NCBI RefSeq assembly: GCF_001718415.1
Contig: NZ_CP013377.1
Span: forward strand, 2,356,001-2,420,000
DNA length: 64,000 nucleotides
Origin: Burkholderia pseudomultivorans
Lineage (GTDB): Bacteria; Pseudomonadota; Gammaproteobacteria; Burkholderiales; Burkholderiaceae
Direction of reading: 5' to 3'
Within the stretch, counting starts at the first letter, position 1. Each line of letters starts with the position of its first letter. Below the pieces are notes generated by a model. It had not been told where the DNA came from and did not search any database. It saw nothing but the letters and a program-made list of their open reading frames with translations. Shown piece by piece: positions 47,290-52,869 of the stretch. The translations under genes were made by a program, and so were the position numbers.

Positions 47290-48906
47290 CTACCGCACGA
47301 CGTCGAGCGCCTGCCGGACGCCATCCCAGTCGAGCCCGAATCGCGCGAGATACTTGCGCAGGCGATCCGCATCGTTCGGCTGCTTCTTGCCCTGCCGCGA
47401 CACCGCGAACAGCGTGCGCCCCGCTTCCGACAGACTCGCCGACCCGCAGCACACCTCGAGCACGCGCTCGAGCTGTACGCGGTCGAACAGGTCGAGTTCC
47501 GCCGCGCGTGCGCCGAGCACCGCGTCGACGCGCGCGTCCGCGCCCGCGCCGTCGGGCGTGGACCACGTGCGCGCCAGCCGCTCGACCTCCTGCTCCACGA
47601 TGGCCTCGGTAATGCGGCCCGCGTCGGCCAGCGTCGCCATCCGCGTGACCGACGCCGACAGCTCGCGGAAATTGCCGGCCCACGCCGCGCGCGGCGACGT
47701 CGCAAACGCGAGATAGCGCCGCTTCGCCTCGACGTTGAAGCGCACCTGCTCGCCCTGCTCGCGACCGAAGCGGTCGAGCTCGAATTCGAGGTTCGGCTCG
47801 ATGTCCTCGCGCCGCTCGGCCAGCCCCGGCAGTTCATAGGTCCACAGATTGATCCGCGCATAGAGATCCTCGCGGAACGTGCCGGCGGCCACCATCTGCC
47901 GCAAGTCGCGATGCGTGCCGGCGATCAGCTCGAAATCGCTGCTCGCCTCGACATCCGCGCCGACCGGCAGGAAGCGCTTCTCCTCGATCGCCTTCAGCAG
48001 CATCGCCTGCTCGTCGAGCCCGAGTTCGCCGATCTCGTCGAGAAACAGCAGGCCGCCGTCGGCCGCACGCAGCAGCCCCGCGCGCGCGGACTGCGCGCCC
48101 GTGAACGCACCCTTCACGTGACCGAACAGCGTCGACATCGCGGCATCGCCGCGCAGCGTCGCGCAGTTGATCTCGATGAACGGCCCCGCGAGCCGATGGC
48201 GGGCGCGCTTCAGCTCGTACACGCGCTTCGCGAGAAACGACTTGCCGGCGCCCGTCGGCCCGACCAGCAGCATCGGCGCACGCGAGCGCACCGCGACGCG
48301 CTCCAGCTGCTCGATCAGCGCGTTGAAGCGCGCGTTGCGCGTCGCGATACCGGCCTTCAGGAACGACACCGTCTCGTCGCGCTCGCGCGTGAAGCGCTGT
48401 GCGATCCGGTTGTAGCGCGACAGGTCGAGATCGATCACCGACACCGTGCCCGGCCCGCTCGGCCCCTCGTCGGTCTGTTGCGGCGGCCCCGTCTGCACGA
48501 GGCGTGCCGGCAGATAGCGCGCCTCCGCGAGCAGGAACCAGCAGATCTGCGCGACGTGCGTGCCGGTCGTGATGTGGATCAGGTAGTCCTCGCGGTCGAG
48601 GTCGAACGGATACGCGCGCGCGTAGTCGTGCAGCGTCGCATAGACCTCCTCGAAATCCCACGGATCGCGAATCGCGACCGGCACGGGGCGCACCTCGGTG
48701 TGCGGCGAGATGCGTTCGATATCCTCCTTCACGCGGTTCGCGAGCCGTGCATAGCTCGGCGGATGCAGCAGTTCGAGCCGGTCGATCGGCAGGTCGGGCT
48801 GGTCGCACAGTGAGACCGTCGGCCGCCACTTGCGCCAGCGGCGCTGCACACCGCCGGCCTGGTCGAGCACGGTGCCGAGAAAACCGATCGCGACGGTCTT
48901 GCGCAT
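47290..48906 (-). CDS. rtcR: RtcR, sigma-54 activator of the RNA repair operon
   Basis: A 538-residue enhancer-binding protein. Residues 1-180 form the RtcR CARF-like sensor (MRKTVAIGFLGTVLD, then EDYLIHITTGTHVAQICWFL), which in characterised RtcR proteins senses RNA ends with 2',3'-cyclic phosphate. The AAA+ domain has Walker A GPTGAGKS (216-223), the sigma-54 loop GAFTGA (266-271) and Walker B GLLFLDE. A C-terminal HTH-like region follows. It is divergent from the operon it should activate; a sigma-54 promoter pointing at that operon lies at 49057. Confidence 0.96.
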   Translation of the reverse strand: MRKTVAIGFLGTVLDQAGGVQRRWRKWRPTVSLCDQPDLPIDRLELLHPPSYARLANRVKEDIERISPHTEVRPVPVAIRDPWDFEEVYATLHDYARAYPFDLDREDYLIHITTGTHVAQICWFLLAEARYLPARLVQTGPPQQTDEGPSGPGTVSVIDLDLSRYNRIAQRFTRERDETVSFLKAGIATRNARFNALIEQLERVAVRSRAPMLLVGPTGAGKSFLAKRVYELKRARHRLAGPFIEINCATLRGDAAMSTLFGHVKGAFTGAQSARAGLLRAADGGLLFLDEIGELGLDEQAMLLKAIEEKRFLPVGADVEASSDFELIAGTHRDLRQMVAAGTFREDLYARINLWTYELPGLAERREDIEPNLEFELDRFGREQGEQVRFNVEAKRRYLAFATSPRAAWAGNFRELSASVTRMATLADAGRITEAIVEQEVERLARTWSTPDGAGADARVDAVLGARAAELDLFDRVQLERVLEVCCGSASLSEAGRTLFAVSRQGKKQPNDADRLRKYLARFGLDWDGVRQALDVVR

Positions 48907-49056: not shown

Positions 49057-49072
49057 TGGCACGCTCCTCGCT
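49057..49072 (+). promoter_or_regulatory. Sigma-54 promoter of the rtc operon
   Basis: TGGCACGCTCCTCGCT carries the -24 GG (49058-49059) and -12 GC (49070-49071) with exactly ten bases between, and TGGCACG is the ideal -24 element. Transcription should start near 49083, so the tRNA-like sequences lie in the leader of the operon mRNA. Confidence 0.8.
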
Positions 49073-49195
49073 AAATAGAAAGCGCCGGATGTCCCGCTGG
49101 CCCGCGAGTGAAGGTTCGCAAGCCTTGCTGGTGCGCCGCCGCCGAACACGATTCGTCGCGGCAGCGCATGCCGCCATGGACAGACGAAGGCAAAG

Positions 49196-49242
49196 GGGCG
49201 CGCATGGTGCCGCGCCCGGGTTCGACTCCCGGGGCGCCCACC
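49196..49242 (+). ncRNA. Minimal tRNA-like element (acceptor stem plus T-arm)
   Basis: A 47-nt element. The 5' strand GGGCGC (49196-49201) pairs perfectly with GCGCCC (49234-49239), followed by ACC. A canonical T-arm lies between, at 49216-49232: CCGGG, loop TTCGACT, CCCGG. Only about 14 bases replace the D- and anticodon arms; GCATGGTGC could make a vestigial D-arm. It abuts the second tRNA-like element directly. An alternative hairpin (GGCGCG with CGCGCC, 49197-49216) could compete. Confidence 0.75.
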
Positions 49243-49311
49243 GTTCGATAGCTCATGGGTAGAGCAGCCGGCGAAAGCCGGCGTGTAGCGGGTTCGATTC
49301 CCGCTCGAACA
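49243..49311 (+). ncRNA. tRNA-like RNA with GAAA tetraloop in place of the anticodon loop
   Basis: A 69-nt cloverleaf. Acceptor GTTCGA/TCGAAC (49243-49248/49305-49310); T8-A9; D-arm GCTC-ATGGGTA-GAGC (49251-49265); anticodon-arm position GCCGGC-GAAA-GCCGGC (49267-49282), a 6-bp stem capped by a GNRA tetraloop. Variable loop GTGTA; T-arm GCGGG-TTCGATT-CCCGC (49288-49304). Discriminator A311 follows, with no encoded CCA. The conserved D-loop GG and T-loop TTCGA needed for elbow contacts are present. It cannot decode. It lies in the leader of the rtcB operon and is probably a regulatory or decoy substrate of the repair system. Confidence 0.85.
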
Positions 49312-49328
49312 TTGTCCGCAAGGACAAT
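49311..49328 (+). ncRNA. GCAA-tetraloop hairpin after the tRNA-like RNA
   Basis: ATTGTCC-GCAA-GGACAAT is a perfect 7-bp stem with a GNRA loop, beginning at the last base of the tRNA-like element. No T-tract follows, so it is not a standard terminator. It may be a processing or protein-binding element. Confidence 0.6.
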
Positions 49329-49354
49329 CTCTTGAAACAGCAGTACCCGCCGGC

Positions 49355-49372
49355 GCGGGCCGCGAGGCCCGC
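49355..49372 (+). ncRNA. GCGA-tetraloop hairpin in the rtc leader
   Basis: GCGGGCC-GCGA-GGCCCGC is a perfect 7-bp stem with another GNRA loop, 26 bases after the previous hairpin. Confidence 0.5.
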
Positions 49373-49576
49373 CGCGTGTCGGACCGGTTGCGGTTCCGCG
49401 CGACCGGCCGGGCGGCCGGGCGGCCGGACGGCCTGCGCCAGCGCGCATCGCGACACGAAGCAACCGGTGTCGCCGTGAACGCAGGCGCCGGCCCCCGCGC
49501 CGCCCGCCCGGTCGCGTCGCGCCCCGATCCGTGCGATGCGTGCCGCCCGGCGGTCATCGAAGAAAAGGACAAGAAT

Positions 49577-50719
49577 ATGTGGAAGCGTCATGTAGTGAAA
49601 AAGAACGAACGCGCGCTGCTGATGAACGAGGGCGATTTCGTGAAGGTGCTCGAACCGGGCGTGTTCCGGGCCTTCGATCCGTTCAAGCGTCTGTCGGTGC
49701 AGACCGCGCGCCTCGATGCGCCGCTCGCCGACGCGGCACTGGCCGACTACCTGCGTCACGACGCTGCGGACGTGCTCGCGCAGCACTTCGTCGCGATGGA
49801 TCTGGCCGACGACGAAGCGGGCCTGCGCTACGAGGACGACGTGCTCGTCGAGATCCTGCCGCCCGGCACGCGTCGCCTGTACTGGCGCGGCCTGATCGCG
49901 CATCGGCTGGAGCGTGTCGACCTGTCGCAGGACAGCATGCTGCCGGCCGCGCTGGCGAAGCGCCTCGCGCAGCCGGCGCTGCGTGCGCGCGGCGTCGCGG
50001 GCCTGACGGGCGTGCTGCTGGCGCAGGTGCCGGCGTACCACGTCGGCGTGCTGAAGATCGACGGCAAGGTCGAGCGGCTGCTCGATCCCGGGCTGTCGGC
50101 GTTCTGGCGCTTCAACCGCGACGTCGCGGTCGAGTACGTCGACCTGCGCGTGCAGTCGGTCGAAGTCGGCGGGCAGGAAATCCTGACGCGCGACAAGGTC
50201 GCGCTGCGGCTGAACCTGTCGGCAACGTGGTGCTATGCGGACGTGCTGCACGCGTTCGGCCAGTTGCAGAAACCGGTCGAGCACCTGTATCGCGAGCTGC
50301 AGTTCGCGCTGCGCGCGGCCGTCGGCACGCGCTCGCTCGACGAGCTGCTGGAAGACAAGCAGGCGATCGACGAGGTCGTGATCGCGCAGGTGCGCGCCCG
50401 GCTCGCGAATTCGGGCGTCGAGGTGCGCAGTGTCGGCGTGAAGGATATCGTGCTGCCCGGCGACATGAAGACGATCCTCGCGCAGGTGGTCGAGGCCGAG
50501 AAGGCCGCGCAGGCGAACGTGATTCGCCGCCGCGAGGAAACGGCCGCGACGCGTTCGCTGCTGAACACGGCGAAGGTGATGGAAGAGAACCCGACCGCGC
50601 TGCGGCTCAAGGAGCTGGAAACGCTCGAGCGCGTCGCGGAACGGATCGACCGCATCTCGGTGTTCGGCGGTCTCGACCAGGTGCTGAACGGACTCGTCAG
50701 CATCAAGGGTGCGCAGTGA
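49577..50719 (+). CDS. Slipin/SPFH (band 7) family protein
   Basis: A 380-residue SPFH-domain protein starting MWKRHVVKKNERALLMNEGD. The band-7 domain covers about residues 120-300, with IDGKVERLLDPGLSAFWRFN and VEVGGQEILTRDKVALRLNL typical of slipins. A C-terminal coiled coil follows (AEKAAQANVIRRREETAATR). Unlike membrane slipins it shows no N-terminal hydrophobic hairpin. First protein gene of the RtcR-driven operon. Slipins are recurrent partners of RtcB in bacterial RNA-repair loci; their role there is unresolved. Confidence 0.92.
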   Translation: MWKRHVVKKNERALLMNEGDFVKVLEPGVFRAFDPFKRLSVQTARLDAPLADAALADYLRHDAADVLAQHFVAMDLADDEAGLRYEDDVLVEILPPGTRRLYWRGLIAHRLERVDLSQDSMLPAALAKRLAQPALRARGVAGLTGVLLAQVPAYHVGVLKIDGKVERLLDPGLSAFWRFNRDVAVEYVDLRVQSVEVGGQEILTRDKVALRLNLSATWCYADVLHAFGQLQKPVEHLYRELQFALRAAVGTRSLDELLEDKQAIDEVVIAQVRARLANSGVEVRSVGVKDIVLPGDMKTILAQVVEAEKAAQANVIRRREETAATRSLLNTAKVMEENPTALRLKELETLERVAERIDRISVFGGLDQVLNGLVSIKGAQ

Positions 50720-50778: not shown

Positions 50779-52002
<1,224 letters not shown>

Positions 52003-52056: not shown

Positions 52057-52869
52057 ATGAACAAGGAAACCTTGAAACCCGTGCGCAGCGCGCATCCGGT
52101 CGAACCGGCCGTGCGGGCGCGCGTGATGGCGGAGCTCGCGGATGTCGAGCGCCGTCACGACGTGAGCGTGCTGTTCGCCTGCGAATCGGGCAGCCGCGGC
52201 TGGGGCTTCGCGTCGCCGGACAGCGATTACGACGTGCGCTTCGTCTACGTGCATCGGCGCGACTGGTATCTGCGCGTCGAAGCGCAGCGCGACGTGATCG
52301 AGCGGCCGCTCGACGACGAGCTCGACGTCAGCGGCTGGGAGTTGCGCAAGGCGCTGCAATTGCTGCACCGGTCGAATCCGACGCTGCTCGAATGGCTCGA
52401 CTCGCCGGTCGTCTATCGCGAGGATCCGCGCTGGGCGCCACGGCTCAGGTCGCTGGCCGGCGCGTTCTTTGCGCCGCTGCGCGGGCGGCATCACTATCTC
52501 GCGATGGCGAAGAAGAACTTTCGCGGCTATCTGCAAGGCGACACGGTGCGCTACAAGAAGTATCTGTACGTGCTGCGGCCGCTGCTCGCGGTGCGCTGGA
52601 TCGACATGGGGCTCGGGATGCCGCCGATGCGCTTCGCGGATCTCGTCGCCGGCACCGTGCACGAGCCGGCGGTGCGCGCGGAGCTCGATGCGCTGCTCGC
52701 GCTGAAGATGAGCGCGAACGAAAGCGAATACGGGCCGCGTCGCCCTGCGCTCCACGCGCTCATCGAGTCGATGCTCGCCGACGCCGCGCACGACCGCGAA
52801 TACAAGCGGCCGTCGGGCGACGTCGCGATGCTCGACGCGTTCCTGCGCGACGTGCTCGCTCATCGATGA
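52057..52869 (+). CDS. Nucleotidyltransferase family protein of the RNA repair operon
   Basis: A 270-residue Pol-beta-superfamily nucleotidyltransferase (COG3541-like). The catalytic signature is GSRGWG (45-50) followed by DSDYDVRFVY (55-64), giving the GS...DxD metal site. AAGGAAAACG precedes the ATG at 52057. It is the third gene of the slipin-rtcB operon. In this setting it may add or trim nucleotides on damaged RNA ends, for instance CCA-less or cleaved tRNAs, but no substrate is known to me. Confidence 0.9.
   Translation: MNKETLKPVRSAHPVEPAVRARVMAELADVERRHDVSVLFACESGSRGWGFASPDSDYDVRFVYVHRRDWYLRVEAQRDVIERPLDDELDVSGWELRKALQLLHRSNPTLLEWLDSPVVYREDPRWAPRLRSLAGAFFAPLRGRHHYLAMAKKNFRGYLQGDTVRYKKYLYVLRPLLAVRWIDMGLGMPPMRFADLVAGTVHEPAVRAELDALLALKMSANESEYGPRRPALHALIESMLADAAHDREYKRPSGDVAMLDAFLRDVLAHR

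Follow-up and report, generated by a model that had tools for sequence, protein, structure and literature searches.

Introduction

The vault particle consists of the major vault protein, the TROVE protein TEP1 and vault RNA, and proteins of the SPFH/slipin family build rings and cages. In eukaryotes, mascRNA/menRNA serves as a 3'-end processing signal. The bacterial Y RNA YrlA is encoded in the RtcR-controlled rsr-yrlBA-rtcBA operon; in the portion of the work of Hughes et al. that is used here cut YrlA fragments were reported as not detected, and a role as decoy or nuclease inhibitor was proposed for YrlA (PMC7790460). The CARF domain of RtcR has been reported to bind tRNA fragments (PMC7790460; PMC9650030), and the portion of the second study drawn on here states that such fragments failed to activate RtcR in vitro (PMC9650030). 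Leaders with tRNA-like structures are described in the yjdF study as raising translation 2- to 6.3-fold (PMC9142559). In Anabaena one repressor, TrcR, was reported to control rtcB and a slipin gene together with the trn operon of tRNA genes, and to be relieved by translational stress (PMC10272220).

The element described below was unreported in the literature searched, and a prior mention of it is possible; the main texts of PMC6429828 and PMC2864571 do not contain the terms rtcB, slipin or tRNA-like.

The operon and its leader

The stretch of Burkholderia pseudomultivorans DNA analysed (64,000 nucleotides, called the window below) carries an RNA-repair operon of the RtcR-controlled kind, with a divergent rtcR, a sigma-54-type site and an operon that includes rtcB. 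The rtcR gene, which codes for a sigma-54 activator with a CARF domain, lies on the minus strand (47290..48906; Pfam PF06956, E 4.5e-84; NCBIfam NF038308, 847 bits at a cut-off of 650), and the putative sigma-54-type promoter site TGGCACGCTCCTCGCT (TGGCACG-N4-TCGCT) was located by its sequence at 49057..49072 on the plus strand. The plus strand also carries the genes for a slipin (SPFH) of 380 amino acids (49577..50719; Pfam Band_7, E 4.4e-30), for the RNA ligase RtcB (50779..52002; Pfam PF01139, E 7e-129, the sole PF01139 match in the genome) and for RlaP, an RNA-repair-associated nucleotidyltransferase (52057..52869; Pfam PF10127, E 3.2e-96).

Between the promoter site and slipin five structured modules could be distinguished on the plus strand. 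The first, M5 (49095..49176), is a small hairpin followed by a bulged hairpin, CYGGUGCG...CGYAUGCCG, and was defined by an alignment of 39 loci (A2), by covariation and by R1, a covariance model of M5. It is followed by TLE1 (49196..49242), a tRNA-like element without anticodon arm which was recognised by its T-arm sequence and by homology, and by TLE2 (49242..49311), a tRNA-mimic cloverleaf with the tetraloop GAAA at 49273-49276 and no CCA, which was identified by ARAGORN, the Rfam model, its fold and the alignment. Directly 3' of TLE2 the comparison of leaders revealed the hairpin TTGTCC-GCAA-GGACAA (49312..49327); hairpins of at least 5 bp were present within 34 nt 3' of TLE2 in 53 of 63 distinct leaders, as compared with 411 of 1260 mononucleotide shuffles. 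The 3' module (49340..49384), which was delimited by alignment conservation, consists of AGUACCCGCCGG and a GNRA-capped hairpin with pairing assigned by eye; it is G+C-rich, and two groups of the alignment pair in different registers. The slipin start codon lies 265 nt 3' of the end of TLE2, and the slipin ribosome site appears to be free, as judged by eye.

The cloverleaf is one module of a leader RNA of about 0.4-0.5 kb, made up of M5, one to three tRNA-like elements, a hairpin and the 3' module, and this RNA should be produced each time the operon is activated. In the preliminary description of this DNA a single tRNA mimic had been reported: the cloverleaf is real, but it is one of two in tandem and has further conserved structure on both sides.

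The position of the element at the 5' end of the unit and on the same strand would suit a cis-acting leader, the modules of which control the translation or stability of the slipin mRNA, either through ribosome binding as in yjdF or through cleavage by RNase P or RNase Z; the increase in translation reported for the yjdF leaders (PMC9142559) offers a precedent. However, the operon already has a dedicated activator, and the mimic is placed far from the start codon. An attenuator was also considered and rejected, three terminator-like sites having been found, all of them on the minus strand and none on the plus strand. We regard a cis-acting role as possible, though rather doubtful.

The cloverleaf TLE2

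The interval 49242-49312 was the sole ARAGORN call in the 64-kb window, reported as 'tRNA-???', i.e. without a valid anticodon. The Rfam tRNA model matched TLE2 with 43.5 bits (E 6.6e-8, short stretch searched); a quicker Rfam run over the whole window overlooked it, and the search of the short stretch scores well above the cut-off. Folded alone, TLE2 forms a cloverleaf of -34.4 kcal/mol (z -4.1, equalled by 0 of 200 shuffles), while the leader stretch of 281 nt gives the less striking value of z -1.7, equalled by 7 of 200 shuffles. The acceptor stem GTTCGA/TCGAAC has 6 bp, the seventh pair, C49242-A49311, not being formed; the D-stem is GCTC/GAGC with GGG in the D-loop, the anticodon stem comprises 6 bp capped with GAAA, and the T-stem has 5 bp and the T-loop TTCGATT.

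Several features set TLE2 apart from decoding tRNAs. It ranks lowest among the 69 matches of the tRNA model in the genome, the next lowest having 50.1 bits. No CCA follows it, and CCA is encoded in 30 of 30 ordinary tRNA genes sampled, 38 other matches lying outside this sample. Among the features of a functional tRNA, covarying cloverleaf stems were found in the TLE2 alignment, a 7-nt anticodon loop with U33 is replaced by GAAA in the window, and TLE2 encodes no CCA end. ARAGORN, the Rfam tRNA model and the fold therefore agree with the earlier assignment as a non-decoding tRNA mimic that belongs to the leader of an RNA-repair operon of the RtcR type. The yjdF riboswitch, T-box and tmRNA gave no Rfam match at the cut-off in the window or in 18 related loci.

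The G+C-rich sequence and the only modest fold score of the whole leader might suggest a cloverleaf that arose by chance in G+C-rich DNA. Among dinucleotide shuffles of the leader, however, only 1 of 4000 gave an ARAGORN tRNA call, and the element is conserved among relatives; together with the covariation of TLE2 and the enrichment of T-arms upstream of slipin given below, this rules out chance, the probability of which we consider practically nil. It is close to certain that the leader is a real, conserved structured RNA.

Covariation and variation of the anticodon loop

Including that of the window, 65 TLE2 copies were collected with a cloverleaf parser and some placement by hand. The leaders outside this set were degenerate or partly deleted (L058, L089), unplaced (L091, L094, L099) or too short (L059, L071). 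The alignment held 46 of the 65 copies, with three start points corrected by hand, and the 19 copies left out were close relatives of copies that were aligned (17 of Burkholderia or Paraburkholderia type and two of Chamaesiphon type).

Over the 966 cells of this alignment 91.9% were standard pairs, as compared with 76.7% after shuffling, and 15 of the 21 pairs were altered on both sides; compensatory change in related leaders, which had been put forward as a check on the cloverleaf, was thereby found. The covariation score was 0.436, against 0.150 after shuffling and 0.054-0.124 when the partners were slid, and RNAalifold recovered the structure unaided, minus the two outermost acceptor pairs. 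Those outer pairs, 1:72 and 2:71, were unpaired in 30 and 16 of the 46 copies, respectively, and the D and T stems were paired to 98.9% and 99.6%. An element with these unpaired outer acceptor pairs is expected to be a poor substrate for tRNA-processing enzymes, which counts against the cis-acting reading.

The anticodon loops of the 46 copies comprised 11 GNRA and 4 UNCG tetraloops and 22 loops of 7 nt; of the other nine, six had 5 nt, two had 6 nt and one had 15 nt. Tetraloops were found in five genera (as labelled), the GNRA type in Burkholderia, one Paraburkholderia and one Thiobacillus, and the UNCG type in two Accumulibacter, Pseudomonas viridiflava and one Burkholderia. Of the 22 loops of 7 nt, 16 have U33 and 16 have U36-A37. 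At another locus, L106, the anticodon is UUA and would correspond to a stop codon. GAAA, the form present in the window, is one among several non-decoding loops, and TLE2 does not serve in decoding. The suggestion that the tetraloop is the scar of an intron-like removal had to be abandoned, because the loop is a tetraloop or of 7 nt according to lineage and the stem covaries.

Tetraloops or shortened loops in several lineages are what one would look for in a decoy or competitive inhibitor of tRNA-cleaving nucleases, shielded by the loss of its anticodon loop. The same role was proposed for YrlA by Hughes et al., in the portion of their paper used here (PMC7790460), and a 'bacteriocin-protection' (OmdA) domain is encoded in the unit of the cyanobacterial locus L179. 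Against this, 22 of the 46 copies retain a 7-nt loop, 16 of these with U36-A37, the E. coli version has neither anticodon nor D arm, and the copies of the leader would presumably be few relative to cellular tRNA. A decoy seems to us an unlikely explanation.

TLE1 and other tRNA-like copies

In the window the acceptor strands of TLE1 are GGGCGC/GCGCCC; the element may also form a D-like hairpin, has a T-arm and ends in ACC, and its last base is the first base of TLE2. The T-arm (49216-49232) is perfect, CCGGG-TTCGACT-CCCGG. Since the window copy folds in isolation as two hairpins and not as a junction, its tRNA-like shape rests on relatives: in 5 of the 13 folded (L032, L041, L061, L063, L068) the best fold was a three-way junction without anticodon arm, and the other 8 gave other folds. 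TLE1 is a complete cloverleaf in some pseudomonads, other gammaproteobacteria and cyanobacteria. CCA is encoded in the TLE1 of several relatives (L061, L065, L070, L083, L086, L087), where TLE1 and TLE2 adjoin in the manner of tRNAs in a processed transcript; this is a point for a cis-acting leader.

Further tRNA-like copies were also observed. A third, partial T-arm hairpin lies 3' of TLE2 in L090, L092, L110 and L112, and L123 has three tRNA-like elements in tandem. Two to four extra tRNA genes, mostly CCA-encoding and with ordinary anticodons, are located 5' of the element in five loci, L109 (Lys/Gly/Val), L207 (Gly/Cys/Pro/His), L212 (His/Lys), L214 (Asn/His/Gln/Lys) and L215 (Pro/Leu/Ser) (1.5 kb upstream of slipin). 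Together with the shared repressor of Anabaena they suggest tRNA supply and repair as a theme of the stress response.

The same two observations, i.e. the extra tRNA genes and the common repressor reported for the trn operon, rtcB and the slipin gene of Anabaena (PMC10272220), could be taken to mean that the elements are relics, tRNA genes of a stress-induced array heading the operon which have decayed. The strong covariation and the conservation in distant groups are not those of decay, and M5 is no tRNA. Because compensatory changes are present this reading is disfavoured, and we hold it to be extremely unlikely.

The M5 module

In the M5 alignment (39 loci) 90.3% of the cells were paired, as compared with 80.0% after shuffling, and the covariation was 0.374 against 0.207 after shuffling and at most 0.149 after sliding; 5 of 500 shuffles matched the observed number of both-side changes and 4 of 500 the observed pair types. 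The main hairpin was obtained by RNAalifold unaided, and the small first helix was placed by hand. Of 33 further loci 27 had an M5 match to R1, upstream of slipin and on its strand, these loci including training genomes or near-identical ones (e.g. L222, L177, L209). In 36 loci, selected mostly for having been missed by the first M5 pattern, R1 gave 18 matches in 15 loci, with E values up to 1 and some of them weak. M5 was absent from nine generic slipin loci in an R1 search.

A class-wide R1 search gave M5 in 5 of 369 genomes, two of the matches being weak and lacking T-arms, so that the genome-wide search is insensitive to distant forms. Among the genomes of the 20 distant relatives just 2 yielded M5 in the class-wide model search, direct searches giving more. 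The weak matches L166 and L167 (E 0.003 and 0.006), which lack tRNA-like elements, were taken as chance. A pairing of the conserved GGUG in M5 with the CC(A) end of TLE1, considered by eye, was not conserved and was dropped. In the YrlA stem the 3' strand, GGCGUAUGUUCC (YrlA-model match at about 78-96), resembles by eye the 3' strand of M5, GCGUAUGCCG, which in E. coli reads GGCGUGUUCCG; the likeness is perhaps due to chance or perhaps a hint of common origin.

Distribution and association with one slipin family

A search of genome contigs with the slipin protein yielded 71 loci, including Burkholderia, Paraburkholderia, Pseudomonas, Thiobacillus, Accumulibacter, Zoogloeaceae, Methylococcaceae, the cyanobacterium Chamaesiphon and alphaproteobacteria; the closest match (99%) was the Burkholderia pseudomultivorans locus L055. 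With the exception of L059 and L071, which have too little upstream sequence, 69 of these loci could be assessed, and every one of them carried one or more intact T-arms in the 1.2 kb upstream of slipin and on its strand, 55 having at least two. This amounts to 129 T-arms in 82.7 kb upstream of slipin (1.56 per kb), compared with 6 in the 1070 kb of remaining sequence of the same loci, both strands counted (0.0056 per kb).

The names of class, order and phylum used below were deduced from the placement of the centre genome. Among 369 genomes of the window's class 20 strong slipin relatives besides that of the window were found (L104-L123), and in all 20 a tRNA-like element or T-arm lay upstream; 19 were convincing, while L105 is doubtful, as its nearest element is 1.4 kb from slipin. 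In contrast, no tRNA-like element was found at any of the nine generic slipin/SPFH loci of the same class search (L124-L132). Within the order, slipin (E 1e-40 or better) occurred in 20 of 250 genomes and M5 (E 0.001 or better) in 13, all of them among the 20 with slipin, as against 0 of the 230 genomes without it. Of the 18 loci newly examined in the order 17 had tRNA-like elements, and L218 is a partial gene which could not be judged. Slipin was present in 8 of 194 genomes of the cyanobacterial phylum and in 5 of 289 of the alphaproteobacterial class, and 12 of these 13 loci showed the element by motif or by ARAGORN; in L187 both T-loops are off the motif, and the elements were recognised by eye alone. 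In phage records no slipin match was obtained at E 1e-10.

The neighbouring genes were less constant. Both rtcB and rtcR were unfound in the stretch at 18 of the 69 assessable loci (L072-L074, L076, L083, L089-L096, L098-L102; phmmer on window proteins, several stretches being short), and the element is present there. In E. coli and Citrobacter slipin is accompanied by a nucleotidyltransferase, RlaP-like by annotation and position, and there is no adjacent rtcB. The element is accordingly linked to one slipin (SPFH) family rather than to rtcB; the earlier wording, leader of an rtcB operon, is correct as to its place before slipin-rtcB-nucleotidyltransferase in the window and has to be amended as to its partner.

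A site of the same sigma-54-type pattern occurs at 50 of the 71 slipin loci, and rtcR was found in 50 of the 71. The frequency of rtcR, and the binding of tRNA fragments by the CARF domain (PMC7790460; PMC9650030), would be in keeping with a leader RNA which, cut or whole, signals tRNA damage to RtcR as ligand or feedback sensor. Yet cyanobacterial and alphaproteobacterial loci have the element and no rtcR in the stretch examined, the uncut tetraloop forms give no tRNA half, and tRNA fragments did not activate RtcR in vitro in the portion of the study used here (PMC9650030). We consider a role as RtcR ligand very unlikely.

The reduced leader of E. coli and Citrobacter consists of a sigma-54-type site, M5 (R1 E 0.006) and a single T-arm, the outer pair of which is unformed, and 1621 of the 5426 complete genomes of E. 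coli contained at least 80% of the leader-slipin query. In E. coli WAT (L223, 3530-6416) yjbD and lysC flank an islet of slipin and the nucleotidyltransferase, after which a zeta-toxin-family gene lies on the opposite strand; the L219 leader, near-identical to that of L223, is likewise reduced to M5 and one T-arm. Upstream of position 6001 in L221 (Subdoligranulum, Clostridia) inspection revealed an M5-like sequence, GCGGTGCGC...GCGTATGCC, and two T-arms 24 nt apart; R1 gave no match to this sequence, and L221 is a possible minimal version of the Clostridia. Because the leaders of E. coli, Citrobacter and L221 are reduced to these parts, M5 and the T-arm or T-arms appear from the sequences to be the constant core, and the full cloverleaf an elaboration.

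In two cyanobacterial loci, L179 and L183, the tRNA-like elements are separated from slipin by an open frame. The frame of L179 belongs to the OmdA/YdeI 'bacteriocin-protection' family (Pfam, L179 only), and that of L183 has a similar start. Such an intervening frame counts against a purely local effect on the translation of slipin.

The slipin protein

A PF01145 (Band_7) match was obtained in 35 of 35 aligned members of the slipin family. The protein lacks a strongly hydrophobic segment, and beta units precede the SPFH domain. In its predicted structure (pLDDT 83) the best fold match was stomatin. In major vault protein a series of repeats precedes a shoulder (SPFH-like) domain and a cap helix; the model resembles it over the repeats and the SPFH domain, the N-terminal part alone only weakly, and homology to major vault protein found no support at the sequence level. 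An insert had been suspected in the slipins of L056 and L088 (4001-5590), and the roughly 150 extra residues turned out to be the beta units that precede the SPFH domain, duplicated in tandem.

One might conceive of a vault-like bacterial ribonucleoprotein, in which a soluble SPFH protein, its stack of beta units varying in number, forms a cage or ring about the tRNA mimic of its own leader and provides a stress-induced compartment for tRNA repair or storage, a second design beside Rsr-YrlA. We think this decidedly improbable.

Discussion

Structure, conservation and linkage to slipin are observed; what goes beyond them is what we infer. Tentatively, and by analogy with YrlA and Rsr, we favour a stress-induced structured RNA that partners slipin and presents a tRNA elbow, and this may, with somewhat less than an even chance, be the function of the element. 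The leader RNA would act as a noncoding partner bound by slipin, a member of a ring- and cage-forming family. In the response to damaged tRNA its elbow, formed by the D and T loops, might hold tRNA-handling factors (RtcB, RlaP or RNase P, for example) or serve them as a docking site, or alternatively it might compete with intact tRNA for those factors. The anticodon arm would be a mere strut, the loop of which drifts or acquires a stable tetraloop cap, and such a cap would also make the mimic a poor target for anticodon nucleases.

Recognition of the elbow is suggested because the T-arm, mostly the elbow, M5 and the link to slipin are kept, while the anticodon, the CCA of TLE2 and the outer acceptor pairs are lost. 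Partnership with slipin is preferred because the link persists across changing operons and promoters, because the element is far from the ribosome site and because an open frame can intervene (L179, L183). Several observations count against it. A cis-regulator would be equally well served by the 5' position on the same strand, usually directly before slipin, and E. coli, Citrobacter and the Clostridia record L221 keep T-arms only, so that a full elbow is not always needed. The isolated fold of TLE1 in the window, locus L105 and the sparse recovery of M5 by the class-wide model search also weigh against the partnership.

If the partnership with slipin is correct, repair operons in widely differing bacteria would have a second, unrelated means of joining a tRNA mimic to a member of a ring-forming protein family, and this would suggest that tRNA mimicry is a general part of the handling of damaged tRNA. 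The element gives a handle on the role of RtcB-linked slipins. E. coli provides a small natural version of it for laboratory work. Annotation programs will label some of these elements as tRNA genes, as ARAGORN does for many.

Comparison with known systems

Besides tRNA, no Rfam family reached the cut-off in the 18 related loci. TLE1 resembles mascRNA/menRNA in having acceptor, D-like and T arms only; the mascRNA model gave it 20.3 bits, under the cut-off of 42.5, and the genomic context of mascRNA/menRNA is unrelated to a slipin leader. The yjdF riboswitch likewise places a tRNA-like fold in an mRNA 5' leader (PMC9142559), but it is a single element near the ribosome site with a ligand-binding junction. 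In Anabaena tRNA genes, rtcB and a slipin gene are co-regulated, according to the portion of the report used here; there, however, the tRNA operon stands apart, on a megaplasmid, and tRNA-like leaders are not mentioned in that portion (PMC10272220). A further system compared was the vault particle, with its major vault protein, TROVE protein and RNA.

For YrlA (RF02553) the YrlA model reached at best 20.7 and 18.5 bits in the window against a cut-off of 69, and no match at the cut-off was found in the 18 related loci. A permuted tRNA made of the T-arm of the first element and the D-arm of the second was considered and rejected: their order is due to the tandem, and no acceptor hairpin was seen between them. 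The acceptor pairs of TLE2 are in normal order, unlike the circularly permuted domain of the Y RNAs with its Ro-binding stem. Membership in the Y RNAs fails on every feature tested, and the earlier observation that no Rsr gene is present was borne out by 0 TROVE matches in the genome. In YrlA one circularly permuted tRNA domain stands beside rsr, whereas the leader in the window has tandem unpermuted tRNA-like elements and M5 beside slipin, with no Rsr match. What YrlA and this leader have in common is a non-decoding tRNA mimic with T-arm and D-arm, an RtcR-controlled repair operon and a place beside a ring-shaped partner protein.
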